From a virus: a stretch of 41,329 nucleotides of DNA. Made by a program: the position numbers and the translations under genes. Numbering within the stretch: position 1 is the first letter of the stretch; the number at the start of each line of letters is the position of its first letter. Shown piece by piece: positions 1-41,329 of this stretch. Below the pieces are notes generated by a model. It was not told the origin of the DNA. It saw only the letters and a list, made by a program, of their open reading frames with translations, and searched no databases. The stretch covers positions 12,936 to 54,264 of IMG/VR virus record IMGVR_UViG_3300030419_006644. The stretch is one strand, 5' to 3'.

Positions 1-3000
1 GACTCGTACCATTATTTAGATATATATTTTCTCCAGTAACTTTAGTATCGGACCCATTAGTTATAGAGGTATTATTCCCGGTTATGGATATTGCACTTGT
101 TTGCCCATATACAGTATTAGTGCCTCCAGTTATATTGAATTCTTGGCCCGTAAATATAGTATTTGCAGAATCATCAATATAGAAAGTTCCACCAGTTATA
201 TATCCAGTACTATAGTTAAAGTTAACAGTTGTTCCAGTTACATAATTAATACCATGAGTAACATTAGTATTATTTCCTGTTATGTTTGCTGTATGATATG
301 TGCCTTGGACAGTATTAGTTCCCCCTGTGATTGAGATTACCGAACCAGTAGCAACATTCGTCCCGTTTGTAATGTACAGCTTTTCACCTGTTGCAGAATT
401 TGTCCCGTTATTAATGGTAGCGACACCTGTAATATAGGAATTAGTGGGAGTATTAAGAGTATTTGTCCCTCCCGTAATATAAGCGTTTTCAGTTATTAGA
501 GAAGATACAGCCCCATCATTAACTGTAGCGGCGGTTCCAGTTACATAATTAGTACCCCCCGTTATGGTAATTGTATCAGCGCCAGAAATTGAATTAGTTC
601 CATTAGCAATATAACCAATTGTTCCGGTTGCATATACAGTTCCGCCAGTAATTTGAGCATCTCCAGTTATATTGACCGTAGATCCTGTGATGTAATTGGC
701 CCCGCCTGTAATTTCAAAATTAGAGCCTGTTAGATAATTAGTACCATCGTTTATATATGAATTTGCCCCAGTGACATAAGCTGTGCTGCTATGAATATTT
801 ATGCTTAGACCAGTAGCATAAACTTTATTCCCTGTGACATGTATATTGCCGCCAGTAGCGAATACGTCTCTGCCTGTTATATATGAATTGCCGCTAGTAA
901 CGAAAACATCTTCGACGGTATCGATTGTATTGATACCTCCAGTAACCGTAACGTAACTTCCAGTTATCCTATTTGTCCCGCCGTCAACGTATCCTTGTGG
1001 AGTGTCTATAGTGAGGACGGCTCCGGAGTTATTTGTTATACTAGAAGTTCCTCCAGTTATATTAACTGTAGTACCCGTAATACTATTGTTACCGCTATTT
1101 ATAACTAGGGTGTCTCCAGTAATGGAGTTACTTCCTCCGGTAACTATTAAACTATTTGTATTTAATGTATTATTTGCGCCGTTGTTAACATATACATTTT
1201 CCCCAGTAATTTTATGCCCAGAGCCATCATTTATAGTTGTCGTTCCTGTTACGACTATGGAAATCCCAGTGCTCCTAACGGTAAAGTTACTTGTTCCTCC
1301 CGAAACGTTAATTGTGCCTACAACATCATGCCCCGTTAATACATAATTAGTTCCGTTAGATATTTCTATTTTTTCTCCTGAAACGTAATTAGTCCCATTT
1401 GAAATGGCGTTTGTCCCACCCGAAACATTAACAGTGGAAGTATTTGCGTCTATTGTATTTGACCCCCCTGTCACAAAGAAATTTTGCCCCTGCTGAATAG
1501 TATTGGAACCTCCCGTGATATTGAAAGTTTCACCCGTAATTGTTGCGCTTCCGCCACTTATCGCAAACGAGTAGCCAGTTATGTAATTATTGCCGCCTGT
1601 TATGTATACAGATTCGTTGCCAGTGACGGTATTTGTCCCGTTTGTGATGTTTATGATATTACCAGTAACTGAATGAGCGCCATCCGTTAGAGTTAGGCTA
1701 ATTCCGGTAATTATAGCATTATCACCACTAATTACGGCAGTCCCACCTGTTATTTGTATTTTATCGCCCGTTGCATATACGGTTGCGTTATTTGTTATCG
1801 GAAAAGAATTTCCAGTGGCGTAAATATTGCCATTGTTTGTTATGGTGTTAGATCCAGAGGTTACTACAGCTGAAGCTCCAGCATTCAAGTTGACAGCGCT
1901 TACAGTTATTCCCTCTCCCACAAAAGAGGAGGCAGTTACTGAGCCGACACTTCCAGTTTTTATTGATACAGTGCCAGTTGCGTTTATAATAGTTCCAGTA
2001 CCGCCTGTAATATAAACATCATTTCCAGTTATAACTGTCCCCGAAGGATTGTTTATGTAATTTGAACCCCCATCAATAAATATCCTACCGCTTTCAATAG
2101 TGTTAATTGTGTTAGAAGCGATATTTACTTCATCCGCATTAAGAGTTGAATTATATATTGTGTTTTCATTACCAGTGAACGAGGTAATGGTAACTCCAGA
2201 TATAGTATTCTTGTCTCCTAAAACAAATACTTTCTCTCCTCCTGATATTTCTGTAGTAGTAGAATAGTTTACATATATGTTTTCCCCAGAATGGATAGTA
2301 TTGACTCCTTGGTTGATAGAAATATCATCTCCAGTGAAGTAGTTTATTCCGCCTGTAATATTCAAAGCGGAAATATGACTACCAGTAATCCAAACAGTAG
2401 GGCTGGCCCCAGAAAAAACTAAGTTTGATGGCGCACCAGTGATATTAAGCGTGTTGAGAAGACCAACCGCGTAAACATTATTGGACCCGCTGAAAATTTC
2501 AATTGAGCCATCCGAGGATTGATCAATAGAGTTAGTTCCGCCAGTAATGAAGACTCTTTCTCCAGTGCCAATTGTATTTGTACCTCCAGTTATTGATACC
2601 TCTGCTCCCTCTATAGTAACATTTGTTCCATTTATGTTTCCGCCGAAATTTTGTACGGTTATACCCGTTTCTGTAGATATATTTGTATTTCCGCTATACA
2701 AATTAAATACATGACCAGAAGCGCCAGATACTGATGAATTATGTATATTTACATTTTCCCCAGTAACTAAAACAGTGCCAGTGATATAATTATCGCCTCC
2801 GGTAATTGAAATTGACGATATGGAATTTCCAGTTATGGAATTAACTCCACCGGATGTATATAATTCATTTACATCAAAAGTCAAACTTGCCCCAGACTGA
2901 TTGGAAATTATATTTGTTCCGCTTGTTATGTTAACGGTTCCATCGTTAGTGAATGTGGTAGAGCCACCAGTAATCGACAAAGAAGTGATACTTACAGCGG

Positions 3001-6000
3001 AAATATTTCCAGAAGCGCCATTATTTATTTCTAAGCTAGATATGGTTTGGCCTGTAAGATTTACGTAATTTACTATTCCAGAGCCGGAGCCAGTAATAGA
3101 TATATTGACATTATTTCCTGTTATGGATTCAATATCAGAATTATAAATAGATACATTCTCACCCGTTATACTAACCGTATCTCCAGTTATATAATTTGAG
3201 CCATTCGTTATATTGGCAGACCCGCCTGTCCATACATTTATTCCTCCAGTAATGGAGACATTGGTCATCGTGCCAGAAAAGGTGTTGATTCCGCTATAAG
3301 AAGTAACGCTCTCTGGGGTTAATATTAACGTTCCAGAATTCGTTATATTGGTTGTTCCGCCAGTTATAGAAACAGCCCCTGTTGTTGAAACACTGGATGT
3401 CCCAGATATAATTGTTATGTCGTCCCCACTAAGACTGCTGACAATGCTATCTTCTATATTGACCGTAGCAGACGCTGCCGCGTCTATCTCATTAGATCCG
3501 CCGCTTATATTTACTAAGCTCGAATTTCTTATGAACCCAAAACCTATTTCATTAAAAGTTAAACTATTAATACCCCCGGTTATATCGTAATCCGCTTCTC
3601 CACCTGTTACATAAAGAGTGGAGTCATTGATAGAGTAAAAAGCCCCACTAGCATTAATAGTAGAAGCCCCGCCAGTGATATATATCCTATTGCCTGTTAC
3701 ATTGTTTACTCCGCTATAAACAGTAGCAGAGCCAGTAACGTTTATGTCGCCTTGTACCGTTGGGTACATGAACGTATTAGCTCCTCCTGATATTTCTAGC
3801 TTATTAAGACCATAAAACGTACTCGACCCTCCGGTTACATTGATAATTGCCCCGGAATTATTTTGCCCCGTTAGATAAAAACTTCCGCTAGTTACAACAA
3901 TATCATTATTACCCCCCGTAAGGTAAGTGTTACCATCGCTTATATTTAAAGTGATGCCAGTATGCAGTTGCCCCGTAAAATAATTCGACCCACCATTAAC
4001 TGTTAGTTTGTCTCCGGTTAAATAATTAGTTCCTCCAGAAACAATGGGCGAGCCAGTTATACTTACCGAAAGATTCGATCCAGTATCCGCACTTATTGTG
4101 GCCGTCCCGCCTGTTATATTTACATATCCAGTAGTATTACTAAATGTAACGTTTGCTGTTCCTGTATTTACTACTACGTCATTATCTCCAGATACTTGAA
4201 GCGTAGAGTCGCCTCCGAATATGCTAAATGCAGTTCCATAAGCTGTATTTTGCCCCCCAGTAATAATTACCGTAGTTCCGGTTATGCCTATTTTAGAATT
4301 ACTGGTTAAACTAAGATTATTAACTGAATGACCAGTAATAGTAGCGGCTCCACTGGTAAAGATCGTACTGGTTCCACCGCTTAAATTAATTGAAAATTCT
4401 GAATTAGCAGTTGCATCTGCTCCCCAAGCATGTGTTACGGCTGATGCTACGCCTCCAGAAATATAGTTTGTTCCATGATATATATTTACTGGCCCAGTCA
4501 TTATACCTGTAGCATGGGCTACAGCGTTGGATCCATAGGCGTCAGCGTATGCAGTACCTCCACTTATAAAGTTGTTGCCGCCAGAAATATTCATTGGCGA
4601 ACCAGTTATATAATTGGTTGTATTATCCCCTAAGAAATTAAAATTAGAATTATAAACATTAGGCATAGAATCCCCAGTGAGGGTGACTGTGCCGTCATTA
4701 ATTGTTATGCCAGTTCCAGTTACATTAACTGGGGTAGCTTTACTGTTGTATAGTTGATTAGTTCCGCTAAGAATATTTACAGTACCAGAATCTGGGTATA
4801 TGGTATTAAAACTGCTTCCAGTAATTGATACGTCTATATTAGACCCAGTGATATTGCTAGTACCATTAGTTAGAGAAATTGGAACAGTTGAATTTGCCGA
4901 AGTAAAACTTCTTATTTCCACTTCTTCCCCGGCGGCTGGAGCTTCAGCAAGATGGACATGGCTTCCGCTAAGTACATAGTCCTTGAATGGACTCATCAAA
5001 ACACCACCCACAGAAACAATTAGACTCTTTTCATTGGCGGGGGCTTTTCCAGAAATTAAATAGTCTCTACCAGCCGGGTTGTGTATGGAAGTATTAATGG
5101 ACTGATTGTCCGAAACGGTAGTTATGTAATTTGTGCTATCACTTGCTGAAAGACCAGTTGTGGTTAATCCAGTTATTGTTGACCCACTGATAGTTACGGA
5201 CCCTCCAGCAATAGACAATACGTTTCCAGAGGATATATACGCATTGCCCCCCGTAAAACTAGCCGTCCCCGTAACATTAATGTTCCCGCCTCCGCTAATA
5301 TTTGTCGCGGTTCCGGTTATATAAATATTTTGGCCGCTAATATTTGTTGCTGTGCCATCTATGTTTACGGTAGCACCTGTTAATGTATTAACACCTCCAG
5401 TTATCGTGGTCGTATTAGTGGAAGTTACATAATTTGTTCCACTTGTTATGTATATATTTTCTCCAGTTGTGTTGGTGATAATCGAGCAATTTTGCGCCGT
5501 ATCAATATTTCCAGAGAAATTTACAATTCCACCATTTACCGTAATACCAGTGCCAGTTACGCTAACGTTTCCACTATTTACTGTGACGTTATTTACTCCA
5601 CCCGTAAGATGAAGATTTTCCGAAGTTAATGTTATGTAGTTTCTTCCGCTTAATAGAGCAAACGTTCCGGGTTGGTATCCAGTTATATAATTTACTCCCC
5701 CAGTTACAACTATCTTCTGTCCGGTTATGTATCCAGTTCCATAATTTACGAAGGTAAAGTTTTCCCCAGTTAAATTTATTTCCCCAGTTGTATGTATCGT
5801 ATTGGTTCCCCCTGTAATATTTAGACCTCCACTTATAACCGAGGTGCTATATATGTTTCCACCAGTTACATTATAAGTCCCATTAGTATCAGTGACTGTT
5901 ACGCTAGAGTCCTTTATGGTATCTATGGTTGGGCTATCAATAGATAGAGTGCCATTATTTATGGCAACTGTTCCGCTATCCCCAACGGATAAATTCTTTA

Positions 6001-8941
6001 TTGAACCTATGCCTGAGTTATTGAATACGAAAAAGTTAACATCTGTTGCCGAAATAGAGTCTTTAACATTAGTTTTTTCTATGTTTATCGCTACCGTTTC
6101 ACTACCAGTAATATTTACTGTTCCCTGTAAATCGCCACTAATAACGGCTGCTAAAGATTGAGCAATATTTATTGTGCCTGTTTTAAATTCAGTTACCTCT
6201 ATCGCAGATGTCGAAACCAAGGTCCCTATATCGCCAGTCACACCAAGGGCAAAATCTCCGCTTATCCCCGTTACGAACATAGTCACAGAGGAGTCATTAA
6301 AGTTATTTACTACCCCACTGCCTTGATCAATCGTAGCTACCCCGCTATGTAAATTAACGGTGTTTCCAGAAACTGAAACCTGCAAGCCGCTATATAAATT
6401 AGCAACGCTATTATCATTTAAATAAAACACATGTTCGCCGCCAGTAATGGTGGCGGTTCCTGTTAAGTTGCCCCCATAAAAATACTGATTTTGTTGGGCT
6501 ATAGATCCATTATTAGTGATTTGCCCACCAGTAACATAAAAAGTAGATTCAGTACCTGATACCGAGAATGTCCCCCCTCTAGTATCATTAAATACGTTTA
6601 TACTTTCAGTAATATCAAACCCTGCCCCACTAGTGCCAGTAACAGAAATGTAGTCTGCTCCAGATATAGAAAATACTTGGCCTGTTATATAATGATTAGA
6701 TCCGCTACCAGTAATATAGATGTTAGAACCAGATACATATAGCTTTCCGCTCTCTTTGTTGTATATGTTTACATCGTTCGGAGAATTAAAATTGAAAATT
6801 CCAGTTGTGTTTATAACTGCGGTTCCCGAATTTACCGTTAGGCCACTTAATAAAGTGAAGCCATTTATATTAGTAACACCGCCCGTTATCATTACATTAC
6901 CGGAAATATCTCCAGTAAGGTTTACTACTCCGCTTTGAACCGTAAGGTTTTTCGGGGTAGGCAGATTTAATTGATCGTAGTCAGTCGCATCTAAAGTTAT
7001 TGAGGCCCCAGAGTTAACATCAATTGAATTTCCGCTGCCAGTTATAGAAATACTTGTTGAAGATCCAGCGTACATATTAAATGTACCCGAAACACTGTCA
7101 GAAAATGTTGAAGTTCCACCAGTAATGCTTATCTGGCCTCCAGTTATATAATTAATCCCGGAGCTAACAAAAATATTGTCACCAGTAACAAACCCTGTTG
7201 AAGCATATATGGTATTATTTACTCCAGTTAAATCTATAGAACCATCAGTTAAATTAATTGTTCCATAATTAGAAGAAAGTATATCCCCCGTAACGTTTAC
7301 CGTTCCCGAATTTATCGAAACATTAGAACCCGTTAAGTAAGCGCTTTGACCACTATTATTAAAATGGATTACATGATTGTCCCCTGTTATGCCAATAGTA
7401 TCCCCAGTAATATAATTAATCCCAGAATGAATACTTAAAGATGTGCCAACTCCAACTGTATTCGTCCCTCCAGTTAAGATAGCGCTACCAGATATATTTA
7501 CGTTCCCTACGTTTTGTATAGTTGATATTGCTACTCCCGTTCCGGTTATTAATACTGTTCCAGTATTGGTAACGCTACCACCACTAAGGTAAATAGCTTC
7601 CGACGAAGAGCTTGATATCTCAGAATTTACAAGGGTGAAAGAAGATTGCATCCCACCGCTGATGGTGATGCTAGACCCGCTATTAATTTCAACTTTACCA
7701 TGTATATTTGTTATGTCTGCCGAACCCGTTAAAGCAATGGAGTTAAAATTTACTATGTCTAAATTTTTAACCCCAGTTACATATGTATTGGCATTGGAAT
7801 TGATGATTATGTCGTCAGCCCTGACATCTACTGTAGAATTATCGATTGTATTAGTACCAGAATAAACATCTATGCCAGTACCATATAGATTTAACGCTCC
7901 AGAATTTATAACGGACCCGGTAATGCTTATATTTCCTGTTGCATATATGTTTCCACTATTTTGAATCGAAGCAAATGAAGTGTTAGTAAGGTAGATGTTA
8001 CCTGACTGATTATTCGTTATAGTGGAGTCGCCCGTAGAATTTAAGGTTGATTGATTTACAACTGAAGTATTAGCACCAGTAATATTTACGCTAGAGCTAT
8101 CCTTTAAAGTAAACGAATTGCCTTCGCCCGTCATTGACAAGCTATTAGCATTATATATATGAGCGGTAGGCTTATATACAAATGGATTCCCCCCAGTAAT
8201 GTTCAGAGTATCAATATCATTGTTGGATATTAGATCTACTGTAGAATTAATATTTATATTGGACGACTGAGTAACTGTAGTAACACCGCCATCAATTTGG
8301 AACGAATGACCAGTGGCAATAGTGTTTCCCGTAATATAAAACGTGCCACCCGTAATGGTTGCTCCGACTCCACCAGTAATTTCTATATTCTGCCCTGTTA
8401 CAACTGGATTAGTCGGATTAATTACCTGAGAATACATTCTGGAAACATCTCCAGTAATATGGGCGTTACCAGAGTAAATGTTGATGATGGAATCATCTAA
8501 ACCAGTTACATAAAGATCCCCTTCATTCAGAACACTGATCGTGGGGCTACCTCCAGTAATATTAAGATTTTGTCCGGTGGCGTTAACGGTCCCCCCGGTT
8601 ATTGAAAATCTTTCTCCAGTAGCGTAAACATTAGAGCCTGAAACAATATTTCCAGCGCCCGTTACAGAAACTGTATTAGTCGTTTCTACATGAGCAAACC
8701 CATTATCTCGAACATGAACCTGACCGTTGGTAGAGCCAGTTAAAGAGCCTCCTGAAGATACAATTACATCTCCAGTAATATGAGCATTCTGAGAGGTTAA
8801 GTGAGTTGTGCCTCCAGAAATATCTATCCTACTATTACCAGTGGTAATCAGCTGCCCAATAACACTATCTTTAACGGACACATTTACGCCAGTTATGTAG
8901 CCTGTGCTGTTATTTAGCTGTATGAGATCTACGTTGGTCAT
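1..8941 (-). CDS. Giant ITG-repeat beta-solenoid fibre protein, partial (C-terminus beyond left edge)
   Basis: Reading the minus strand from the ATG at 8941-8939 gives 2980 codons with no stop down to base 2, so the gene continues past the window edge. The protein opens MTNVDLIQLNNSTGYITG and is then almost entirely a degenerate repeat built on (I/V)-T-G-(G/N/D), for example FSITGGTVNATGQNLNITGG and YITGGTNTLNTPTNSYITG, with ITG tripeptides about 10-14 residues apart. It is dominated by Thr, Asn, Gly, Ser, Ile, Val and Tyr, with few charged residues. This composition fits a parallel beta-solenoid or fibre shaft; that fold is inference. A non-repeat island at about 4906-5045 has the pattern LIVSVGGVLMSPFKDYVLSG, matched by a module in the upstream gene. 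The start overlaps the upstream stop as ATGA, suggesting translational coupling. A virion fibre or adhesin is likely from position; no catalytic domain was seen. The alternating phase of codon use in every line supports real coding. Confidence 0.88.
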   Translation of the reverse strand, partial: MTNVDLIQLNNSTGYITGVNVSVKDSVIGQLITTGNSRIDISGGTTHLTSQNAHITGDVIVSSGGSLTGSTNGQVHVRDNGFAHVETTNTVSVTGAGNIVSGSNVYATGERFSITGGTVNATGQNLNITGGSPTISVLNEGDLYVTGLDDSIINIYSGNAHITGDVSRMYSQVINPTNPVVTGQNIEITGGVGATITGGTFYITGNTIATGHSFQIDGGVTTVTQSSNININSTVDLISNNDIDTLNITGGNPFVYKPTAHIYNANSLSMTGEGNSFTLKDSSSVNITGANTSVVNQSTLNSTGDSTITNNQSGNIYLTNTSFASIQNSGNIYATGNISITGSVINSGALNLYGTGIDVYSGTNTIDNSTVDVRADDIIINSNANTYVTGVKNLDIVNFNSIALTGSADITNIHGKVEINSGSSITISGGMQSSFTLVNSEISSSSSEAIYLSGGSVTNTGTVLITGTGVAISTIQNVGNVNISGSAILTGGTNTVGVGTSLSIHSGINYITGDTIGITGDNHVIHFNNSGQSAYLTGSNVSINSGTVNVTGDILSSNYGTINLTDGSIDLTGVNNTIYASTGFVTGDNIFVSSGINYITGGQISITGGTSTFSDSVSGTFNMYAGSSTSISITGSGNSIDVNSGASITLDATDYDQLNLPTPKNLTVQSGVVNLTGDISGNVMITGGVTNINGFTLLSGLTVNSGTAVINTTGIFNFNSPNDVNIYNKESGKLYVSGSNIYITGSGSNHYITGQVFSISGADYISVTGTSGAGFDITESINVFNDTRGGTFSVSGTESTFYVTGGQITNNGSIAQQNQYFYGGNLTGTATITGGEHVFYLNDNSVANLYSGLQVSVSGNTVNLHSGVATIDQGSGVVNNFNDSSVTMFVTGISGDFALGVTGDIGTLVSTSAIEVTEFKTGTINIAQSLAAVISGDLQGTVNITGSETVAINIEKTNVKDSISATDVNFFVFNNSGIGSIKNLSVGDSGTVAINNGTLSIDSPTIDTIKDSSVTVTDTNGTYNVTGGNIYSTSVISGGLNITGGTNTIHTTGEINLTGENFTFVNYGTGYITGQKIVVTGGVNYITGYQPGTFALLSGRNYITLTSENLHLTGGVNNVTVNSGNVSVTGTGITVNGGIVNFSGNIDTAQNCSIITNTTGENIYITSGTNYVTSTNTTTITGGVNTLTGATVNIDGTATNISGQNIYITGTATNISGGGNINVTGTASFTGGNAYISSGNVLSIAGGSVTISGSTITGLTTTGLSASDSTNYITTVSDNQSINTSIHNPAGRDYLISGKAPANEKSLIVSVGGVLMSPFKDYVLSGSHVHLAEAPAAGEEVEIRSFTSANSTVPISLTNGTSNITGSNIDVSITGSSFNTIYPDSGTVNILSGTNQLYNSKATPVNVTGTGITINDGTVTLTGDSMPNVYNSNFNFLGDNTTNYITGSPMNISGGNNFISGGTAYADAYGSNAVAHATGIMTGPVNIYHGTNYISGGVASAVTHAWGADATANSEFSINLSGGTSTIFTSGAATITGHSVNNLSLTSNSKIGITGTTVIITGGQNTAYGTAFSIFGGDSTLQVSGDNDVVVNTGTANVTFSNTTGYVNITGGTATISADTGSNLSVSITGSPIVSGGTNYLTGDKLTVNGGSNYFTGQLHTGITLNISDGNTYLTGGNNDIVVTSGSFYLTGQNNSGAIINVTGGSSTFYGLNKLEISGGANTFMYPTVQGDINVTGSATVYSGVNNVTGNRIYITGGASTINASGAFYSINDSTLYVTGGEADYDITGGINSLTFNEIGFGFIRNSSLVNISGGSNEIDAAASATVNIEDSIVSSLSGDDITIISGTSSVSTTGAVSITGGTTNITNSGTLILTPESVTSYSGINTFSGTMTNVSITGGINVWTGGSANITNGSNYITGDTVSITGENVSIYNSDIESITGNNVNISITGSGSGIVNYVNLTGQTISSLEINNGASGNISAVSITSLSITGGSTTFTNDGTVNITSGTNIISNQSGASLTFDVNELYTSGGVNSITGNSISSISITGGDNYITGTVLVTGENVNIHNSSVSGASGHVFNLYSGNTNISTETGITVQNFGGNINGTNVTIEGAEVSITGGTNTIGTGERVFITGGTNSIDQSSDGSIEIFSGSNNVYAVGLLNTLNITGAPSNLVFSGASPTVWITGSHISALNITGGINYFTGDDISINQGVNTIHSGENIYVNYSTTTEISGGEKVFVLGDKNTISGVTITSFTGNENTIYNSTLNADEVNIASNTINTIESGRIFIDGGSNYINNPSGTVITGNDVYITGGTGTIINATGTVSIKTGSVGSVTASSFVGEGITVSAVNLNAGASAVVTSGSNTITNNGNIYATGNSFPITNNATVYATGDKIQITGGTAVISGDNAIITGISLTLTDGAHSVTGNIINITNGTNTVTGNESVYITGGNNYITGYSFAISGGSATITGETFNITGGSNTIQQGQNFFVTGGSNTIDANTSTVNVSGGTNAISNGTNYVSGEKIEISNGTNYVLTGHDVVGTINVSGGTSNFTVRSTGISIVVTGTTTINDGSGHKITGENVYVNNGANNTLNTNSLIVTGGSNSITGDTLVINSGNNSITGTTVNITGGTSSITNNSGAVLTIDTPQGYVDGGTNRITGSYVTVTGGINTIDTVEDVFVTSGNSYITGRDVFATGGNIHVTGNKVYATGLSINIHSSTAYVTGANSYINDGTNYLTGSNFEITGGANYITGSTVNITGDAQITGGTVYATGTIGYIANGTNSISGADTITITGGTNYVTGTAATVNDGAVSSLITENAYITGGTNTLNTPTNSYITGVATINNGTNSATGEKLYITNGTNVATGSVISITGGTNTVQGTYHTANITGNNTNVTHGINYVTGTTVNFNYSTGYITGGTFYIDDSANTIFTGQEFNITGGTNTVYGQTSAISITGNNTSITNGSDTKVTGENIYLNNGTS

Positions 8942-10010
8942 GATCCGCCGATTGTCACTGTTGAGTAGTAAATGTAATAATTAGTACCTGTCGATTGTAC
9001 AGTATTCGCACCACTTATAATATTTGTCGAATTAGCATTTCCAGTAAAGCTAAGGTCTCCATTGTTTATGTCTATACTCGTTATTGGAGAGTTACCAGTT
9101 ACCCCAATATTTTGTATGGTATTCCCTGTTACGCTAAGGGTGGAGTTGTTAGCTGTTAAATGGTCAGTGCTTACATGTATGTCGGAACTGGAATTTATGG
9201 TCGCGTCATTACCAGTAATATCAAACCTAGTATTGCCATATCCCAGAGCGGTGAATCCAGCATTGGCTGTTATTGTCTGTCTTTGATCCCCGCTATTACC
9301 ACTAAAGGTATAGTTTGCGGTTCCAGCATTCTGATCTATGTCCAGTGTTGTATCGCTATTCCCACTTATATATGCCGTTGAGTTACCTTGTATAACTATT
9401 CCAGATCCAGAATAATTAACATTGTTCAAGGTGCTATCGTTAATCGTTATGGGGGAGCCAGATACTCCATCTATCCTACCTGAATTTACAACATTAACAG
9501 TTAAGCCCGTTATGTTGGCGTCTCCTGAATACGAATCAGTAAAATATACTGTATTACTGCCATCATAAATCGCTATTGTCGAATAGGCTCCACTTACCTC
9601 ATTCGTTCCTCCAGTAATGTGTATGTTACCAGTAGCGCCAACGTAACCGCTGTATACATTTACTTTACCTGCCCCTGTCTCCGCGTATATGTAAGCATTA
9701 CTATTATTAGTTATATCAGCATTTACCCCCTCATTTGCCACTACAACATTTGCATTAGTAGAAGACACCGTAGTAGTTGCACCCGGCTCAGTGTAAAGAT
9801 TTACCGCTGTAGCTGACGCATTATTGGTGATATCAACATCTATTCCACTGTATTCATTGTGGATGGTTTGACCTCCACCAGTAATATTTACGTTGCTATC
9901 GTAAATATTATAGTTATCAATATTTAGCCCTGATACATCTCCGGAAAAATTAATATTTGTCCCAGTGGAAAGATCACTGAAAGTAAGTGAGCCAGATCCC
10001 TTTAGGTCTA
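1..10010 (-). repeat. Degenerate ITG(G) coding repeat spanning two genes
   Basis: On the plus strand almost every 60-base line contains one or more copies of ccagtaat, ccagttat, cccgttat or close variants, always in the same codon phase; on the minus strand these read as (I/V)-T-G. The repeat fills the whole partial gene at the left and the last ~360 residues of the gene ending at 8938. Units vary in length and sequence, so this is an old, diverged protein repeat rather than a recent DNA satellite. Confidence 0.85.
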
Positions 10011-13000
10011 TGCTCATGTTATATACTGTAGGCTGAGTTACAACAGAGTTAGATATTTGCCTTATTAAAACCTCTTCTCCAATATTAGGGGCAGAAGCAA
10101 TTTTTACACCCGTGGTACTTAATAAACTGTAATCTTCGATTGGGGTAAGATCTATACCATCAAGGGATACAAATACTCTCTCAATGTCTCCTTCGGTATA
10201 CTCAAGCTGAAATGAATCTTGACCACCATCCCCAGTGTAGACTGCCGTTCCTATGATGGATCCTTCCCCGGTATTCGGGAAAAATTTAAATTCGGCATTA
10301 TTATCAACGCCGAAAGTCATATTGGCAGCACCGCTACCCTTATTGTAAGTGCCTACAGCATACAAACTTCTACGAGTTGCTACATCATCATCGGAATGCG
10401 TTGATCCGAGTTTTGCATATACGTCAAGGTTAAGCGGCGAATCACCATTGTGCGCTGATGGATAACCCTCCGTAACATAACTAGCCAGAATATTATCGCT
10501 CTCATTATTTGTCGTCTCTACTTGAGCGGTAGTAACGATTGGCCAGTTCATTAAATCACTGCCAATTTTAACTTTTACATCTTGTAAATTATCCGCTGTC
10601 TGTAAAAAAGTAGTAAAATGAACTTTAACATGCTCCCATACCGAAGAAGGAGGAAGATTTAAAGCTATGGATCCAACAAGTGTATCCGTAGAGGTTAAAG
10701 TGGTTGAAGTTCCGGTTCCCTGTGATCCAGTAAAGCCTAAGTGAGTGCCAAGACTTACATTCTCAAATCTAAAAGTGTCACTAGTTGGGTCAACTTCATT
10801 GCCGTTTAGATTGATCGACGCTCCATCCCCAGTAAGAATAATTTGATTATTTTCTATTGTTACAGATTTTGAAGGATCGTCTTTAGCTATGCTCTGTATA
10901 TTCCCACCGGAAACAACAAAGTTTCTGTCGTAAACATATATGTTGTTTGTTTCATCGAATATTTGATTTATTTCAGTGGAGTTTTTAGCCCCGCTGAACA
11001 TGTAAACCTCTTTCAGGTCTCCCTCAACGAATCTAGAAGTAGATGTATTAGTAAGTATATTTAAATTTTGATTTGTATAAGAAATCGTTTTTGCGCCGAC
11101 TGCATCAGAAGATACTTCAGTACCGCTAAGATAAATCTTATGGCTCGATCCATCCCAAGTAGAATGAACCATATGATACATGCCAGTGTTAACAGGACTG
11201 GTAAATATTGTAGAAGAAGAATTATCGGTAAATGTTAAAGTGGAATAAAACCTTCTAGTTGAGTCGTAAGCTATTTGATAACTTACAAGCTCTGTTGGGA
11301 TAAGGTTCGGAGCTTCAATTATCGGGGTAGCAATCGTACCTCCAACTTCATTAGGCCTAAATACAACCCCCAATGTAAAGCTTTGAGGCTTTAGATTCTC
11401 CGTCATTGGCAGGGTTGCGTATTGATCAACCCCGTTAAATTTAAGCTCGTTAGTATTAAACGTGGGAGAATTTACAAGCGTAGCGGTATTTTTATGTTTA
11501 GATATATCATTCCAATTTGTTGCCCCTGCCCCAGTATAACTAATTTTACTCGAAGCGCTCAGATGAAGAATTTTATTTTCCCTTGGGAGAGTATAAACAA
11601 ATGGATCATCAAGATTTAATGGAGCACCATCTAACAAGTAGTTACCAGATACGTCTATATCTCCATGTACAAATGCATCTCCTGAAGCAACAAGTCTATC
11701 TTTTACGTAAGCGCTTTGGTGTACCCTTAAGTCGCCATAAACATCCAAATCTCCTTGTACAATAGTATATTTACCAAGGCTACTTTGAAGAAGCGGAGAG
11801 TTTTTAGTGACCTCGAAATCAACTTCTTGAGGTAACGGATTAAAAACGTTTTCGTCAGGAGTAATGCCTGATATCCCCACTGATCCATCAACCAACCCAG
11901 TAAATCCCCACCCTGAAACACCAGCATCCGAAGAGTCTCTAGACTTCAACTGAAAGTCATCTATGTGCTCAAGATTATAACCCCCTAATACAAATTCAGT
12001 TTCTCCTGCTATGCCCCTTGCTGGAGAAAACCCAGTGATCTCCGGGGGTCTTATCACCTTTAAGTATCCACTTTCAAAATTAGAGCTTGAATTCTTACTA
12101 GTAAAGCTACTATGCACCGAAAGATACCCAGACTCTATTAGCGAATCCCCGTAAAATATCGTAGGGGGGATGAGTACATCTATTAGGGTATCACTTGTGT
12201 CTACTATGGTCGTCTCATAGGTCAATGTGCCAGCAAATGAATCTCCGCGAAGATGAAGCATTGCGCCCGTAACATTTGTCAGCCCACTACCCCTTATCGA
12301 AACCTTTTCGCTTCGGAAACCAGACAAAGGATTTATTCCGTTAAGCTCTATAATTTCCGGTAAAACTTCAAGAGTGTGTGTTTTGTATCTAACATCCTCC
12401 CACCTTTGCATGGTGTAACTACCAGTAAACCCAGAGTAAAACGCCCCCGAATTATGGTAATCGGTATCTTTTGTAGCTCCACTCCAAACAACATGATCGT
12501 GCTGAGTTACAATTCCATCACCATTAAAATCGTATTGGTTAAAAAATCTCCCTTCATATAATTTACCTTGATAGGTAAATGAATCAGGACCCGGAGTTAC
12601 TATATTTTGTCTATAATTTTTTAATAACTCCGGTTCATTTAAGAACGAGAAAACATGCCCAGTACCAACAAAATTAGGACCAATTTGAATAGGGAGGACA
12701 AAAACTCCCGTAACGTCACTATTGACCAAACCACTCCTAAAATAATGATTCCTTATATCTGCGTTATATTGAAACGCTTCGCCATCGCCTTTACTAACTA
12801 TTAAAGCTGGATCATTTGGAAGAAAGTAATCTCCAAGATTAAAGTAAGAGGCTTCCGAGTCGTCTGAGTAGTGATCAATTTTTGTATTATATTTACTTAG
12901 AAATTCTAGCTGTTTTAGATTTCCGGGGTCATGACTTGCCCCAAGTCCCGTACCTGATATACCTATAGCGTTTTCAAATGTATTAAACGCATTAATTCCA

Positions 13001-15387
13001 GTTACGTATAAAGTATCCCCAACCCTTATTTGATTATGGGAAATTCCTAGAATAGTTGGGAAAATAGTGAGCGCTTCAAATGCCGCTATTTTATAATCTT
13101 TTTGCTGCGGGGTAGAAACCCCTTGGCTTACTGCATATATACTAGCCTTATCCCCAAGTCCCCTAGGTATATCGAAGGTTACGTAATTAACACCTTCAGG
13201 ACTAACGAGGTATTGAACGTTATCGGGACTCTTATAATCAAGCGTTGGGGCAAAATTTAAAGAATTTTTACCACTATCAACTGGATTGCCCATGTCCAGC
13301 GTACCAGAAGTATAAGCCGGATACAGATAATAGTTTGAGCCATGTAAATCCTCACCGCTCATAGTAATCGTATCCCCATACAATCCTGATCCGGGATATA
13401 CAAATACATTAGTAGGAGCTAAGTCTATGCTAAAAATGTCCTCAGTCTCGCAAGAAGAATATTCTGTTTGTAAGCGTAATGCTCCGTCTCTAGCCCCAGC
13501 TGGAACCCTGATTCGAATTCCAGTTTTTGGAGTTTCCGTTCCCGTAGGTAATATACGAGAAATTGTCCCTCTATTATCGACCCTAACTGTGACTATTCCC
13601 GTGCTTAGGGGATCCCCTGAAAAATGAACACCCGTAACTAGTTCTACATTTCCCCCAGTGATGGTTATATAGTTACCCCTTTGCTCCGTTGACGGGTGAA
13701 AACCACTACATACAACGTCAGGGGGTATTACTAAAAATTTATTAGATGAATAAGCTGTCCCTTGTGAATTACTAACAGTAAATATTTCGTTCCTGTTTCT
13801 ATAAAAAGCATCTAAAGCTAGGTAATCTGACTTAGGGGGTATAGTAACCAATAATCCAGTCGGATTAGACTCATTAGAACTTACCCATGTATCTATGGCG
13901 ACTTGACCATGCTTTACTGATGTTATCCCCGCTAAAGACTCTCCCCCAAGTAAAACCTGACTCCCATGATTTCCAGATAGCGGGGTAAAACCTGTTATTT
14001 CCGGGGCCCCAACAAAACTGAACGAGTCGCTTGACTGGGTTCCTAACCCAACTCCATTGTCAACAATTACCTTGTAGGGGCAAGAACTCGACATTCCCGG
14101 ACAATGCACACTTATGATTTGCTGTTCTGAAGATGTCTCCAATGGATCACCTTCAATACCGCTTATAGGCGCTAATATTTTTTGATTTAAAAATGTATTG
14201 TTGGCATGAGCACCACTAAAGTAGACTTTTAAATCATCTGTAAAGTACCCACTACCAGTAATTCTGATTATAGAATTCAACTCTGCCGATGGAGGCCCAA
14301 ACCCACTAATAACTGGCTCGTATTTTGCAAAATAAGCCCCCTGCTTCCAGCCCGTTCCGTGAGCGGTTTTTACCACAAGGTCCATGTAACCAGTGCCACT
14401 GGGAGAAGAAATTGACAGAGCCCCATTAGTTAAGCTGGTATAAGATACGGTTAATGGATCGAGTAAATTATGGGTAGTGCTTATGTCAAAAGAATGGCCC
14501 TTCGGAAAAGTGTAAATGCCCTCGACATCAACAAGATCCCTGCCCGTTACGGTATAGTATGTTGGAGCCCTATTCCCAGCTGGAATACCAGACGCGGGAG
14601 ACAGTCCATCGATATAGGGGGAACTTACTCTCAAATAGAAGTCAACGCCTCCAGTATGGAGATTACCTGCTAAATCCACTAAGTTTACAGAGCCCGAATA
14701 TGCATCATTGGGAACGTAGCCAGTAATAACGTCCGCTCCGCTTAATCCAAATCCAGTAATGCCGCCAGCAAAACTTACATCAAATAAACCGTCATTATTA
14801 CTTACTGCGGAGGGGATAATGTTTTCACCAGAGAGTATAATCTGGTCCCCCACATAACCTGAAGCTGGAGTTATCCCAATTAATTTAGCCGATACTCCGA
14901 GCCCCCCTATTTCCCCCTCTACCCCAGATTGACCCACTAATTTTAACGAGCCAGATATATTGCCCGTAGGGACTAATATCGGCAAAGCCCTTATATCAGT
15001 CACAGACCCAGACAAGACCTCTCCAGAAATTGATTCACTCCCGAAAAAGGCCCCTGTAACACCAGAAAACGCATTACCGGACGCAGTTAATATTTCCCCC
15101 GGCAATGGTGAATACCTATCTAAGCTAGTTATCTGAGGCGCAGGGACAAATTCTTGTGGGCTCTCACCAGAGGTGTTCTGGTGAGTAGATTGTAAAGTTA
15201 TTTTTCCCCATTGAGCATTTTGAGGAACTGTAGCCTCTAAGAAATTTCGGTTTATTGCGTAAAACGAAGCGGAAGTATCGTAAGCGGGTTGCTGACCAAA
15301 GTAAACATGAGTGACGCGATCAAAACCGTCGCCAGATACCATTATCTGACCGCCTATAGAACCCGTCAATGTTTCGATTAGAGCCAT
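8938..15387 (-). CDS. Mosaic tail fibre/adhesin: TIG/IPT array, EF-hand loop, LamG-like domain, beta-solenoid tail
   Basis: A 2149-residue protein. Residues 1 to about 1180 contain roughly eleven immunoglobulin-like TIG/IPT domains, each opening like ITGFTPLSGNHGSQVLLGG or LIGITPASGYVGDQIILSG. A calcium-binding loop DFNGDGIVTQHD lies at residues 953-964 (dockerin/EF-hand spacing D-x-N-x-D-G-x-V-x-x-x-D). Residues about 1209-1260 read as short stacked strands (YGDLRVHQSAYVKDRL, HGDIDVSGNYLLDG), typical of a fibre shaft start. Residues about 1270-1480 look like a concanavalin/LamG jelly roll (LKFNGVDQYATLPM, HSTWDGSSHKIYLSG). Residues 1735-1780 hold a VFVSLDGIDLTPIEDYSLLS module, and from about 1790 to the end the protein becomes ITG-type repeat. 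It follows the tube-like gene by 3 bp and overlaps the next gene by ATGA. Likely a receptor- or glycan-binding fibre; the ligand cannot be read from sequence. Confidence 0.85.
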   Translation of the reverse strand: MALIETLTGSIGGQIMVSGDGFDRVTHVYFGQQPAYDTSASFYAINRNFLEATVPQNAQWGKITLQSTHQNTSGESPQEFVPAPQITSLDRYSPLPGEILTASGNAFSGVTGAFFGSESISGEVLSGSVTDIRALPILVPTGNISGSLKLVGQSGVEGEIGGLGVSAKLIGITPASGYVGDQIILSGENIIPSAVSNNDGLFDVSFAGGITGFGLSGADVITGYVPNDAYSGSVNLVDLAGNLHTGGVDFYLRVSSPYIDGLSPASGIPAGNRAPTYYTVTGRDLVDVEGIYTFPKGHSFDISTTHNLLDPLTVSYTSLTNGALSISSPSGTGYMDLVVKTAHGTGWKQGAYFAKYEPVISGFGPPSAELNSIIRITGSGYFTDDLKVYFSGAHANNTFLNQKILAPISGIEGDPLETSSEQQIISVHCPGMSSSCPYKVIVDNGVGLGTQSSDSFSFVGAPEITGFTPLSGNHGSQVLLGGESLAGITSVKHGQVAIDTWVSSNESNPTGLLVTIPPKSDYLALDAFYRNRNEIFTVSNSQGTAYSSNKFLVIPPDVVCSGFHPSTEQRGNYITITGGNVELVTGVHFSGDPLSTGIVTVRVDNRGTISRILPTGTETPKTGIRIRVPAGARDGALRLQTEYSSCETEDIFSIDLAPTNVFVYPGSGLYGDTITMSGEDLHGSNYYLYPAYTSGTLDMGNPVDSGKNSLNFAPTLDYKSPDNVQYLVSPEGVNYVTFDIPRGLGDKASIYAVSQGVSTPQQKDYKIAAFEALTIFPTILGISHNQIRVGDTLYVTGINAFNTFENAIGISGTGLGASHDPGNLKQLEFLSKYNTKIDHYSDDSEASYFNLGDYFLPNDPALIVSKGDGEAFQYNADIRNHYFRSGLVNSDVTGVFVLPIQIGPNFVGTGHVFSFLNEPELLKNYRQNIVTPGPDSFTYQGKLYEGRFFNQYDFNGDGIVTQHDHVVWSGATKDTDYHNSGAFYSGFTGSYTMQRWEDVRYKTHTLEVLPEIIELNGINPLSGFRSEKVSIRGSGLTNVTGAMLHLRGDSFAGTLTYETTIVDTSDTLIDVLIPPTIFYGDSLIESGYLSVHSSFTSKNSSSNFESGYLKVIRPPEITGFSPARGIAGETEFVLGGYNLEHIDDFQLKSRDSSDAGVSGWGFTGLVDGSVGISGITPDENVFNPLPQEVDFEVTKNSPLLQSSLGKYTIVQGDLDVYGDLRVHQSAYVKDRLVASGDAFVHGDIDVSGNYLLDGAPLNLDDPFVYTLPRENKILHLSASSKISYTGAGATNWNDISKHKNTATLVNSPTFNTNELKFNGVDQYATLPMTENLKPQSFTLGVVFRPNEVGGTIATPIIEAPNLIPTELVSYQIAYDSTRRFYSTLTFTDNSSSTIFTSPVNTGMYHMVHSTWDGSSHKIYLSGTEVSSDAVGAKTISYTNQNLNILTNTSTSRFVEGDLKEVYMFSGAKNSTEINQIFDETNNIYVYDRNFVVSGGNIQSIAKDDPSKSVTIENNQIILTGDGASINLNGNEVDPTSDTFRFENVSLGTHLGFTGSQGTGTSTTLTSTDTLVGSIALNLPPSSVWEHVKVHFTTFLQTADNLQDVKVKIGSDLMNWPIVTTAQVETTNNESDNILASYVTEGYPSAHNGDSPLNLDVYAKLGSTHSDDDVATRRSLYAVGTYNKGSGAANMTFGVDNNAEFKFFPNTGEGSIIGTAVYTGDGGQDSFQLEYTEGDIERVFVSLDGIDLTPIEDYSLLSTTGVKIASAPNIGEEVLIRQISNSVVTQPTVYNMSIDLKGSGSLTFSDLSTGTNINFSGDVSGLNIDNYNIYDSNVNITGGGQTIHNEYSGIDVDITNNASATAVNLYTEPGATTTVSSTNANVVVANEGVNADITNNSNAYIYAETGAGKVNVYSGYVGATGNIHITGGTNEVSGAYSTIAIYDGSNTVYFTDSYSGDANITGLTVNVVNSGRIDGVSGSPITINDSTLNNVNYSGSGIVIQGNSTAYISGNSDTTLDIDQNAGTANYTFSGNSGDQRQTITANAGFTALGYGNTRFDITGNDATINSSSDIHVSTDHLTANNSTLSVTGNTIQNIGVTGNSPITSIDINNGDLSFTGNANSTNIISGANTVQSTGTNYYIYYSTVTIGGS
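12496..12531 (-). other. EF-hand/dockerin-type calcium loop inside the fibre gene
   Basis: Encodes D-F-N-G-D-G-I-V-T-Q-H-D, with acidic or Asn ligands at loop positions 1, 3, 5 and 12 and the invariant Gly at 6. A single loop is visible, lying between TIG/IPT domains. Calcium binding is inferred from the motif and could stabilise the fibre in seawater. Confidence 0.7.
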
Positions 15388-15390
15388 CTT

Positions 15391-16473
15391 TTAGTCTTCG
15401 GTTCTATATATGCCCCCTACTGATATTGATGGCCTTATAACTATAAAGTTTTCGTCGCTTGCGTCCTCTATCTCACCGTGAGTTGAAACAGCGTCATTCC
15501 TTCTTGCGTTTATATTTCCAGTGGGAATTGTAATATCCGGAATCACAAACTGTACTGTTTGGTCATCTATATAAATAACTTGTATGTCGCAGTAATCGCC
15601 TATGCATATTGTTGGGTCATTTTGGAAATTTACCCCAGTAACAGTCACCACTTCTCCGGGCAATCCGGAAAGAGGCCAAAATGATTTGATGGATACCGTC
15701 TCGCTTGCAGATGTTTGCCTTATGGAGAAGGTATTGCCAAGAACGTCAGAGCCTACCCCAAGTTGCTTATTATGAACTTTCCCTCTCAGCGAATACTGGT
15801 CTTGAGGAACCCCATCCCTATTAGATAATGCATAGGTAACTCTACAATCTTCCCCGTAAATACTTAAATCCCCACTATAATTATCAAAGCCTATTTTTGA
15901 AGTAAGTTCTCTTTTCCCAAAGAGTATTCTATTTGGCCTTATGTTTGTTGTGGATTCGCCTGTGTATACCTCATAAGTCGCCTGAACATCATTCTTGTAA
16001 TTTAAACTTGCTGAACTAACGCTAGAAAGATTACCTAAACCAGTTCCATTTATGGATATGTCAGAAACGTTAAGTACGTTTTGGGAATCTAAAGTTTCTG
16101 TTTGAGGGGTAAACTGCCCAGAAAAATGATCAAAAAAGCTTACAGCAGCATTTACATATACTGGCTGATTTGGGGCGAAGTTTACAGAATAAGAAGTTAA
16201 ATAACCGCTTGAAAAATTTACTCCTCCGAACTCACCACTTATCCCGGAGCTTTCAAGGTATATATGCTTCTTAAGAGGGTCCGCCCCAGTTAAATAATAG
16301 CCTACATTAAAAGTCCCCCCTACTGGGTTAGAAGGAGAAGGTTTACCTTGAGCAAACTTTCTATTTAGATGGTAATTATCTTCTAACCTTCCCTCCACGG
16401 AAATACTAACTCGATCAGCGAGAATTCCACTTCCATTTAAAGTTATGATGCAATTTTTATAACTACTGTACAT
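15391..16473 (-). CDS. Tail-tube-like structural protein with C-terminal TIG/IPT domain (paralogue 3)
   Basis: 360 residues. The N-terminus (CIITLNGSGILADRVSISVE) aligns with that of the preceding gene product (CDIRINGTGLMAQRASIKSS), and GGVNFSSGYLTSYSVNF aligns with FNSGYLLSYSNSCSVG of the first paralogue, so the three proteins form one family. The middle part repeats the theme of a second beta-domain. Residues about 265-350 form an added TIG/IPT domain (IKSFWPLSGLPGEVVTVTGV), the same fold that dominates the fibre protein next door, which suggests a link between tube-like and fibre proteins. The start is supported by a strong AAGGAGG site 8 nt upstream; its ATG shares one base with the previous TAA stop. 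A tail-tube or tube-decoration role is inference from family pattern and position. Confidence 0.72.
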   Translation of the reverse strand: MYSSYKNCIITLNGSGILADRVSISVEGRLEDNYHLNRKFAQGKPSPSNPVGGTFNVGYYLTGADPLKKHIYLESSGISGEFGGVNFSSGYLTSYSVNFAPNQPVYVNAAVSFFDHFSGQFTPQTETLDSQNVLNVSDISINGTGLGNLSSVSSASLNYKNDVQATYEVYTGESTTNIRPNRILFGKRELTSKIGFDNYSGDLSIYGEDCRVTYALSNRDGVPQDQYSLRGKVHNKQLGVGSDVLGNTFSIRQTSASETVSIKSFWPLSGLPGEVVTVTGVNFQNDPTICIGDYCDIQVIYIDDQTVQFVIPDITIPTGNINARRNDAVSTHGEIEDASDENFIVIRPSISVGGIYRTED

Positions 16474-17303
16474 TAGTCTATCCTCCTTATCTCAAAAGTA
16501 GACTTAACATAGTCATTCGTATTTATTGAAACATTATTAGATACAATCCTATACCCAGACACATCAAAATCCATAGATTTATCTAAGCTCTCGTCACATA
16601 AATATCCCAACTTAAATATTCTAACTCTTGGGTTCTGTTCGCAAGCGTCAAATAAAGCGCATCCACTCTCACCATAGTGATTCATTTGCCTACTTTGATC
16701 TTTTTCAATCTTTATGACCTCTTCAGCATTAATATTCGCTACTTGAGCAGGAAGTTTGCTCCCTATTGCATATAAAGGTTTGATTGTATTGGCGAAGTTG
16801 TAATCAAAAGAAAAAACAGGTATGTCTAAATCACCTGCATCAGACTGTATGAAAGTAGTCCAAGAATGAGCTAATCCACTAAATCCGCTTTTAACTAAAT
16901 TTAAATCACTCGTTTTTTCTGTGACGTTTCCACTTAGCTCCCCGAAGCCCTTATAAGTGACATTGGCTAGAACAACATTATTTTGATTAACTCGAATGGA
17001 AAAATCGCTCATGTAAAAAGCGCCGGAAATTCCTGCTACTTCTATTACCTGAGAAGACGCTTGCTCAAAATCCGTAGAGTTTTTGATTCTTACTGTTTCT
17101 GGGTAACAAGGATCTCCGTCCAAATCTACATAATAAGTAGCCTGAAAGGTATTTTGAACTGTCCCATTTGGGGTAAGTTCTATGGCGTCTGCCCTTCCGA
17201 GGGGCGTCACCCTTTTCAATGAATTAGAGGATTTAATGGATGCCCTCTGGGCCATTAACCCAGTTCCATTTATCCTAATATCGCAATCATTAAAAAAAAC
17301 CAT
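16473..17303 (-). CDS. Tail-tube-like structural protein (paralogue 2)
   Basis: 276 residues, without signal peptide or membrane segment. It opens MVFFNDCDIRINGTGLMAQR, and its section AGISGAFYMSDFSIRVNQNN matches SSGISGEFGGVNFSSGYL in the downstream paralogue. A later section with IKPLYAIGSKLPAQV parallels the second half of the 17340-18248 product (YYKLGGRKPHTVKV), suggesting a two-domain beta fold. It contains several Cys (for example SGCALFDACEQNPR), unusual in this neighbourhood. The upstream leader has AAAAGG and AGGG before the ATG. Position between another tube-like gene and the fibre genes argues for a virion structural protein; the exact role is unknown. Confidence 0.65.
   Translation of the reverse strand: MVFFNDCDIRINGTGLMAQRASIKSSNSLKRVTPLGRADAIELTPNGTVQNTFQATYYVDLDGDPCYPETVRIKNSTDFEQASSQVIEVAGISGAFYMSDFSIRVNQNNVVLANVTYKGFGELSGNVTEKTSDLNLVKSGFSGLAHSWTTFIQSDAGDLDIPVFSFDYNFANTIKPLYAIGSKLPAQVANINAEEVIKIEKDQSRQMNHYGESGCALFDACEQNPRVRIFKLGYLCDESLDKSMDFDVSGYRIVSNNVSINTNDYVKSTFEIRRID
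16474..16488 (-). promoter_or_regulatory. Strong ribosome binding site for the 15391-16473 gene
   Basis: The minus strand reads AAGGAGG at 16488-16482, eight bases before the ATG at 16473-16471. It lies within the last codons of the preceding gene and fixes the start of the third tube-like paralogue. Confidence 0.75.
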
Positions 17304-17339: not shown

Positions 17340-18248
17340 TCAATAGGTTTGAGTGATTAATTCCGGACCAATCAAATTATCATTTAGAGTGTTTAAATTC
17401 GATATATAGGTTTTGTAAGTTGCAGTTATCCTAGCGTTTTGGTCCGTGTCTGCTGAATAGTTTTCACTGACTAAAGTAGCTCCAGAAAACGCAAATTGAG
17501 TTATCAAATCTCTAGTCTTGTGATTCTTTAAGTTTATTTCGAAATTTTTAAGTTTTTGCTTACATGGATAGGAGCTTATTAAATTTCCGGAATAATCATT
17601 TATTTCTATTGTGAAATTAACTTGCGCGAGAATTGGGTAGTCTACTTTTACCGTATGCGGCTTCCTACCACCTAGTTTGTAGTAGTCTTTTCTAGGGATA
17701 TTTATCGAAATTTGGTAATTTTGAACTAAATTTGTTTTAAAATCATCTAAAGTGATTTCAATAGTAGAAGCAGTCGGAAACTTAAAAACGGGGTCAGTTT
17801 TTGTTGTGTTTTTTATATATTCTACCTCACCTTGAGCATCTGTAGCCATTTCGCCCGTTGGAATTCTGCCCATATCCCCTACAACCCTAAAATTAGCCTC
17901 CATAGTTGGAACTTGCCCAACTGAGCAAGAGTTAGAGTAGCTTAAAAGATAACCAGAATTAAATGCGTAATAGTGCTTACCAAAATCATTCTGATCCTTT
18001 AGGAAATAACCGTTAAAACTTTGATCTGATATGCACTGGATAAATGGATCTTTGTCTACAGACATGGCAGAAAGGGATACCTCGCCTACCTGAGAACTAG
18101 TAGGGATAGGGATAATCCTGTTTGACCCCACAACCTCCATAGGCTGCTCCGGCACTGTGTAGGAGGTGCTTACAGATTGAACACCAAAAACCTGACCAGA
18201 CCCTATAAAAACTTGATGATCTTCTCTGTTCAGAATGCTAAAAGCCAT
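17340..18248 (-). CDS. Tail-tube-like structural protein (paralogue 1)
   Basis: 302 residues, first gene of the minus-strand fibre operon. Sequence features include VFIGSGQVFGVQSVSTSYTV near the N-terminus, GEVSLSAMSVDKDPF, and the family signature FNSGYLLSYSNSCSVGQVPT followed by ANFRVVGDMGRIP. The second half (INIPRKDYYKLGGRKP, NFTIEINDYSG) is again beta-rich. The pattern resembles tube-forming or tube-decorating proteins of long-tailed phages, and the same signature recurs in weaker form in the next two genes, so I treat them as tandem duplicates. It could be the major tail tube protein, or a minor one if the true tube gene lies beyond the right edge. Starts 69 bp from the divergent M gene. 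Confidence 0.65.
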   Translation of the reverse strand: MAFSILNREDHQVFIGSGQVFGVQSVSTSYTVPEQPMEVVGSNRIIPIPTSSQVGEVSLSAMSVDKDPFIQCISDQSFNGYFLKDQNDFGKHYYAFNSGYLLSYSNSCSVGQVPTMEANFRVVGDMGRIPTGEMATDAQGEVEYIKNTTKTDPVFKFPTASTIEITLDDFKTNLVQNYQISINIPRKDYYKLGGRKPHTVKVDYPILAQVNFTIEINDYSGNLISSYPCKQKLKNFEINLKNHKTRDLITQFAFSGATLVSENYSADTDQNARITATYKTYISNLNTLNDNLIGPELITQTY

Positions 18249-20104: not shown

Positions 20105-20116
20105 AGGTAAGGGCTG

Positions 20117-22316: not shown

Positions 22317-22322
22317 CCTAAA

Positions 22323-41127: not shown

Positions 41128-41168
41128 AACTCGATGGCTAGAGTTTTATTTTAAAATTTCCCCGCAAA

Positions 41169-41329
41169 TTACTCTGGTTTTTGATTGTCATTGCCTTCGG
41201 GGGATTCTTTTTCAGGCTCTGGTTCGGGCTCAGGCTCAGGCTCTTCTTCTGGCTCAGGCTCAGGCTCTGGTTCAGGCTCTGGTTCTTCTTCTGGCTCTGG
41301 TTCTGGTTCTTCTTCGGGTTCTGAATTTT
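41169..41329 (-). CDS. Acidic Glu-Pro C-terminal tail of an upstream protein, partial
   Basis: The minus-strand frame open at the right edge ends at TAA (41171-41169). Its last 52 residues are an alternating Glu-Pro/Glu-Glu-Glu-Pro tract (EPEEEPEPEPEEEPEPEP) closing KESPEGNDNQKPE. The main domain lies outside the window. Position upstream of the chaperone-slot gene would suit a tail tube or other head-tail structural protein, but the visible part carries no fold information. The tail is highly acidic and probably extended. Confidence 0.75.
   Translation of the reverse strand, partial: NSEPEEEPEPEPEEEPEPEPEPEPEPEEEPEPEPEPEPEKESPEGNDNQKPE
41214..41321 (-). repeat. Hexanucleotide-type Glu-Pro coding repeat
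   Basis: Imperfect GGCTCA/GGCTCT/GGTTCT/TCTTCT units run in tandem on the plus strand; on the minus strand they encode EP dipeptides with EEE interruptions. Such near-identical short units can change length by slippage. Confidence 0.8.

Follow-up and report, generated by a model that had tools for sequence, protein, structure and literature searches.

Genes and features of the locus

The viral DNA analysed here (the window: the whole stretch of 41,329 nucleotides, bases 12,936–54,264 of the 54,264-base IMG/VR record IMGVR_UViG_3300030419_006644) carries a minus-strand operon that opens with genes for proteins of 302, 276, 360 and 2,149 aa, in that order, and ends with the gene of a giant repeat protein. 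Divergent from it lie lambda-like tail-tip genes, among them that of the central fibre J (phrog_31, E 2.8e-114). The repeat gene is encoded within this tail morphogenesis module, and as the divergent genes are of the M/L/K/I/J type and a tape measure gene is nearby, the virus is a phage with a long tail whose tip is lambda-like. The features are the following.

1..8941, minus strand: repeat protein, residues 1–2980 of about 3,590; last gene of the operon, interrupted by a scaffold gap at the edge of the window
1532..1774, minus strand: most regular stretch of the repeat protein, matching the beta-roll family PF21300 LbR_Ice_bind (42.6 bits, cut-off 30)
4874..5140, minus strand: non-repeat insert in the repeat protein (residues ~1268–1356), a highly conserved block that by eye resembles the Phage_T7_tail-like stretch of the upstream protein
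8938..15387, minus strand: upstream protein, 2,149 aa, with a TIG-like N-terminal half (by eye), LamG, a T7-fibre-like stretch and a C-terminal repeat
8941..10005, minus strand: C-terminal stretch of the upstream protein (last ~350 residues), same repeat as the repeat protein
10045..10248, minus strand: Phage_T7_tail-like stretch of the upstream protein (PF03906, 20.6 bits, cut-off 25.2)
10966..11433, minus strand: Laminin_G_3 lectin-like domain of the upstream protein (PF13385, 50.4 bits)
15391..16473, minus strand: operon protein of 360 aa carrying a TIG domain at its C-terminus (PF01833, 27.5 bits, cut-off 20.9)
16473..17303, minus strand: operon protein of 276 aa, kept in relatives, without a family
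17340..18248, minus strand: operon protein of 302 aa, first of the operon, kept in relatives, without a family
18318..27056, plus strand: divergent lambda-like tail-tip genes (minor tail proteins, NlpC/P60-JAB, assembly protein, central fibre J)
28844..40042, minus strand: tape measure protein, 3,732 aa (PF10145, 98.4 bits, E 6.7e-28)

The frame of the repeat gene was recounted as 2,980 codons with no stop between the ATG at 8941 and base 2, just as the original prediction had it. Over the same interval the other frames contain 276 and 276 stops on the minus strand and 120, 107 and 341 on the plus strand, and with bases drawn independently at this composition, such a stop-free run has a log10 P of −93. 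The product (2,980 aa) is rich in T (15.7%), G (14.7%), N (12.0%), S (12.0%) and I (10.8%), and the near absence of Lys, Arg, Trp and Cys that had been noticed is borne out by the measured values (K 1.0%, R 0.5%, W 0.1%, C 0.0%). A repeat is indeed present; it is not "near-pure", as had also been claimed, since [IV]TG occurs at 137 usable sites over 3,589 letters (X at the gap) and since the insert at residues ~1268–1356 falls outside the repeat.

The frame leaves the window because the window begins beside a scaffold gap, a run of 10 Ns at contig positions 12,926–12,935 immediately to its left. When the gene is followed leftwards past this gap, the same repeat resumes in another register for 605 further residues and is closed by a stop, which is preceded by a non-repeat tail with the motifs YDENYLYIK and GWRR. 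The frame thus runs off the left edge as predicted, but not without limit. If the 10 Ns are read letter by letter, a TAA appears after 2,990 codons; we regard this as an artefact of the number of Ns, since the repeat resumes in a different register and the relatives described below are uninterrupted there, and the change of register is what is expected from a gap of wrong nominal size. The 605 residues and stop past the gap, together with ungapped relatives of 3,549 and 3,546 aa and a third of 3,774 aa, put the length of the gene at about 3,590 codons.

The stop codon of the upstream gene overlaps the start of the repeat gene in the sequence ATGA, and translational coupling through this overlap may ensure that both chains are made in step. 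A programmed frameshift joining the two genes was considered and rejected, as no X XXY YYZ slippery heptamer occurs in frame in the upstream gene's final 200 nt; stop and ATG adjoin each other in the relatives, which makes two coupled genes the simpler arrangement. The likeness to PF03906 was seen in two upstream proteins (20.6 and 17.2 bits, residues 1714–1781 and 1709–1772), in both cases below the cut-off of 25.2; it is located mid-protein, and not at the N-terminus as in a T7-type tail fibre. The 276-aa and 302-aa operon proteins gave nothing significant against the PDB.

Some further observations were made in the window. Two adjoining genes at 20117–21657 resemble, by eye, paralogues of the K-type tail protein, and the first has NlpC/P60 and JAB domains. 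The tape measure protein carries six [IVM]PN[FY] motifs within residues 557–1321 (four are found in that of the relative G008). At 41138–41329 a frame end of low complexity, with abundant K, N, Q, S and L, is cut by the right edge.

Orthologues with split and fused genes

A viral-contig scan with the upstream protein yielded six loci, and scans with the 302-aa and 276-aa operon proteins yielded seven loci each and added one record. The 605-residue piece matches three of the six records, strongly in G001 (E 1.4e-156) and G006 (E 8.4e-154), both of which contain the entire gene (3,549 and 3,546 aa) with no gap and no Ns. At ~53% identity the two are colinear with the window part, the gap and the 605 residues, so the gap conceals only a few residues. 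A third complete gene, of 3,774 aa, is found in G010, and the start codon is kept in the complete orthologues. Pairwise identities among the four repeat proteins (window, G001, G006, G010) are 52.7, 52.7, 44.3, 96.0, 47.0 and 47.1%. The gene is under purifying selection: dN/dS is 0.184 for the G001–G006 pair (3,546 aligned residues, with a single length difference of 3 aa) and 0.188 for the window–G001 pair, in which dS is saturated (2.2), and the upstream gene gives 0.19 in both pairs. The near-constant length at 53% identity suggests that length itself is selected.

Relatives were also sought with the pattern [IV]TGGTNx[IV]TG, which gave 18 stretches: four in records already found (L039, L043, L049, L051), six in four further records (G007–G010), and eight single chance matches. 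All four further records carry giant repeat frames; three of them (G010, G008, G009) match the upstream protein and two (G010, G007) the C-terminal profile. Such peptide-pattern scans are not exhaustive, as a viral-contig scan with the C-terminal query returned no relative though relatives exist. The scan of bacterial genome contigs yielded no relative that would point to a host, and none of the seven stretches scanned for tRNAs (stretches rather than entire genomes) contained one.

The window, G001, G006 and G010 encode the two proteins side by side as separate chains. In G008 a single frame of 3,676 aa holds both parts instead: it matches the upstream protein up to residue 2,142, continues as the repeat and is still open where the contig ends. 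G009 has another fused-looking frame (3,482 aa), likewise open at the contig end. The record of G007 starts within a repeat frame of 5,267 aa that ends in the tip. Residues 2,743–3,676 of the G008 frame and 1–975 of the G007 frame are 82.4% identical, end against start. Should both frames represent one and the same gene in two related phages, a gene of this type would have ~2,742 + 5,267 = 8,009 codons, a length that spans two records and is contained in no single one, and for which repeats could displace the overlap. The split and fused versions suggest how a two-chain fibre may become one.

G008 encodes a tape measure protein of 6,037 aa (L069:847–18957, contig ~72,847–90,957) with PhageMin_Tail at its N-terminus and LysM in its second half, from which a tail near 0.9 µm is predicted; at the same assumed 0.15 nm per residue, the tape measure in the window predicts a tail of ~560 nm. 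Outsized tail proteins in long-tailed phages are also known from the Thermus phages P23-45 and P74-26, for which a tape measure of 5,002 residues, shorter than that of G008, and a tail near 1 µm are reported (PMC10770324, PMC10034513). In P23-45/P74-26 the giant is the tape measure, whereas here both the fibre and the tape measure would be giants (3,732 aa for the latter in the window, 6,037 aa in G008).

Some neighbouring genes in the related loci also deserve mention. L002:1–3381 encodes a second large adhesin candidate of at least 1,127 aa with weak GP38/tail-fibre matches; it is 32–39% identical over part of its length in G001/G006, far less conserved than its neighbours. A glycosyltransferase-like gene at L002:7261–9186 (Glycos_transf_1, 25.8 bits, cut-off 26.4) is >80% identical in relatives, and L020 ~900–6239 (G006) holds what by eye are successive genes of sugar-nucleotide metabolism types (kinase, epimerase or dehydratase).

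The repeat, its predicted fold and the tip

Glycine recurs in the repeat protein with a period of 7/14 residues: its autocorrelation is 0.165 at lag 7, where 1,000 residue shuffles reach at most 0.064, and 0.152 at lag 14, where they reach at most 0.067. Around the [IV]TG sites the preference is (T/N)-(V/I/N)-x-[IV]-T-G-(G/S/T/D/N), with a second site seven residues away. The only Pfam family found at E≤0.01 with the whole 2,980 aa was PF21300, at 18.6 bits below its cut-off of 30; it reached 17.7 bits, again below cut-off, on the whole protein in G008, and was not listed for the whole G001 or G010 protein. Of 20 tiles of 149 aa, one exceeded the PF21300 cut-off (42.6 bits), a second reached 17.6 bits, and two further tiles had sub-threshold matches to other Pfam families. 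A 140-residue slice round the best stretch, picked after the fact, scored 42.9 bits, and none of four shuffles of it matched anything. A profile of the repeat protein (A1) had a single match at E≤1 among PDB sequences, namely 3ULT (E 0.0026), the grass ice-recrystallisation-inhibition beta-roll that PF21300 describes. The two are alike in a short N/T-x-(I/V)-x-G strand repeat; they differ in that the grass chain in the PDB has 133 residues, whereas the phage protein is ~27 times longer and more degenerate. Pfam contains a model of the YadA head, which matched none of the 20 tiles at E≤0.01.

An AF2 model of 601 residues, made with three aligned sequences, is all-beta and solenoid-like, with a mean pLDDT of 55.9 and ~70 in the most regular blocks; that of the C-terminal 605 aa had a mean pLDDT of 45.5 and was left unused. 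Foldseek gave no match to the former model in the PDB at E≤0.001. With a best Z of 12.5 for this model of pLDDT 55.9, VIA-align ranked first an S-layer protein, at an rmsd of 22.4 with 481 aligned, and a PL6 lyase, at an rmsd of 3.8 with 235 aligned. As its rows, which begin with the S-layer protein and beta-helices, mix beta-helices with leucine-rich repeats, we take from them no more than "solenoid-like". The single BFVD match at E≤0.001, an uncharacterised S-CAM7 protein with TM-scores of at most 0.20, was set aside. It is a fair inference from period, profile and model, at low to middling prediction confidence, that the repeat forms a beta-solenoid, probably of the roll type.

For the C-terminal 91 residues, 81 matching phage records were found at E≤0.1, the majority of them from Synechococcus phages and the best with E 9e-5; the tip match is 37.9% over ~66 residues. 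In both cyanophage proteins examined, S-CAM8 AOV60027.1 (annotated as "YadA domain-containing structural protein"; E 2e-3) and ACG-2014b AIX17313.1 (E 9e-5), the region matched is the C-terminus of a large structural protein encoded beside neck genes. By annotation these counterparts are large phage virion proteins too, but the S-CAM8 protein (1,694 aa) has another body that is not an ITG repeat, and the cyanophage genes lie in a T4-like neighbourhood with the neck genes gp13/gp14.

In the searches made here, no family of Pfam (for the whole protein), of PHROGs or of isolated phages covers the repeat protein. Neither giant protein matched any PHROGs family at E≤0.01. Among 50,697 phage records (INPHARED), the 2,980 aa found only Salmonella phage Sasha, weakly (two records, E 8e-4, 4% covered), and the upstream protein found four Flavobacterium phage records, over 10%. 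The degeneracy and low complexity of the repeat are the reason why general family libraries miss these proteins. No description of this repeat was found in the literature by title or start of abstract. Giant phage fibres are known as a kind, and the proteins described here add a giant repeat family to it, whose complete members have 3,546–3,774 residues and whose incomplete members go beyond 5,200.

Place in the virion

That the long frame is an artefact of assembly or annotation, with repeats collapsed or two proteins wrongly joined, has in its favour the 10-N gap inside the gene. The original prediction had itself named an in-frame stop and collapsed repeats as the points on which it could fail. 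The relatives have no stop at the gap position, and ungapped orthologues are present in G001, G006 and G010. In the window part there is no exact direct repeat longer than 18 nt and no repeated 25-mer, so that collapse of long repeats is unlikely, and TRF found one weak 1.9-copy array in 15.4 kb. With the dN/dS of 0.18 added, an artefact is scarcely credible, and we reject collapsed or misassembled repeats on the strength of the orthologues, TRF and the exact-repeat search; the gene is real, conserved, giant and whole in relatives. (Repeats of up to 68 nt occur in G007, the longest, and make its assembly less certain.) The match of the most regular stretch to PF21300 (42.6–42.9 bits) and 3ULT as the sole PDB sequence match of the profile at E≤1 could also be read as a sign that the repeat binds ice, like the grass antifreeze protein behind its nearest Pfam model. 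Yet a single tile in 20 exceeds the cut-off, a common roll architecture with Thr/Asn-rich strands is no proof of ice binding, and nothing ties the phage to ice; we consider this very improbable, if a shade less so than an artefact.

A more serious alternative, though still an unlikely one, is that the protein runs along the tail or capsid like a whisker, as an adhesin or decoration of the virion, and is not a host-recognition fibre at the tail tip. It would suit the opening of the operon, with three small conserved proteins of unassigned place, the 276-aa family's tail-tube match (non-significant, E 0.55), and the neck genes gp13/gp14 adjoining the cyanophage tip relatives. Against it, lambda-like tail-tip genes neighbour the repeat gene, and LamG and a fibre-type tip fit recognition. 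Gene order alone does not decide between the two placements.

We favor the tail fibre, a role predicted from sequence for which the repeat protein is a probable candidate, given that the M/L/K/I/J-type genes and the tape measure adjoin its gene. Counted against it are the weak fold models and the empty Foldseek search of the PDB at E≤0.001, the one tile in 20 over the PF21300 cut-off with whole-protein scores below it, and the tip match of 37.9% over ~66 residues. It is likely, in our judgement, that the upstream gene (8,938–15,387) and the repeat gene (1–8,941) encode two chains that follow one another in a single, very long tail fibre; what speaks most strongly for placing them end to end is the fusion in G008. 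The 2,149-aa chain, with its TIG-like domains, LamG and repeat, would be the tail-proximal part, and the chain of ~3,590 residues the shaft, a putative beta-solenoid of ~250 turns with ~14 residues per turn. At 14 residues and an assumed 0.48 nm per turn, the shaft would be ~120 nm long (123 nm for 3,587 residues), and the small C-terminal tip at its end may contact the host surface. The original prediction of an undescribed solenoid fibre of very large size holds up as an inference, given the tail operon, the 7/14 beta repeat, the fibre-type tip, the complete orthologues and the lack of a covering family; it is qualified by the PF21300 match of the most regular part, by the tip shared with cyanophage structural proteins, and by giant phage fibres being a known kind.

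More doubtfully, an uncultured lineage of long-tailed phages may build single-chain beta-roll fibres of >100 nm, and in its G008/G007 branch anchor, shaft and tip could be fused into ~8,000 residues, beside the 6,037-residue tape measure. Such a fused form would raise the interest of the finding: if this tentative reading is true, these would be among the longest fibres and the longest tails of any virus, both growing together. If the roll is real, the protein would offer a natural, very long and almost Lys/Arg/Cys-free solenoid for materials, and a route to asking how phages reach their hosts at a distance.
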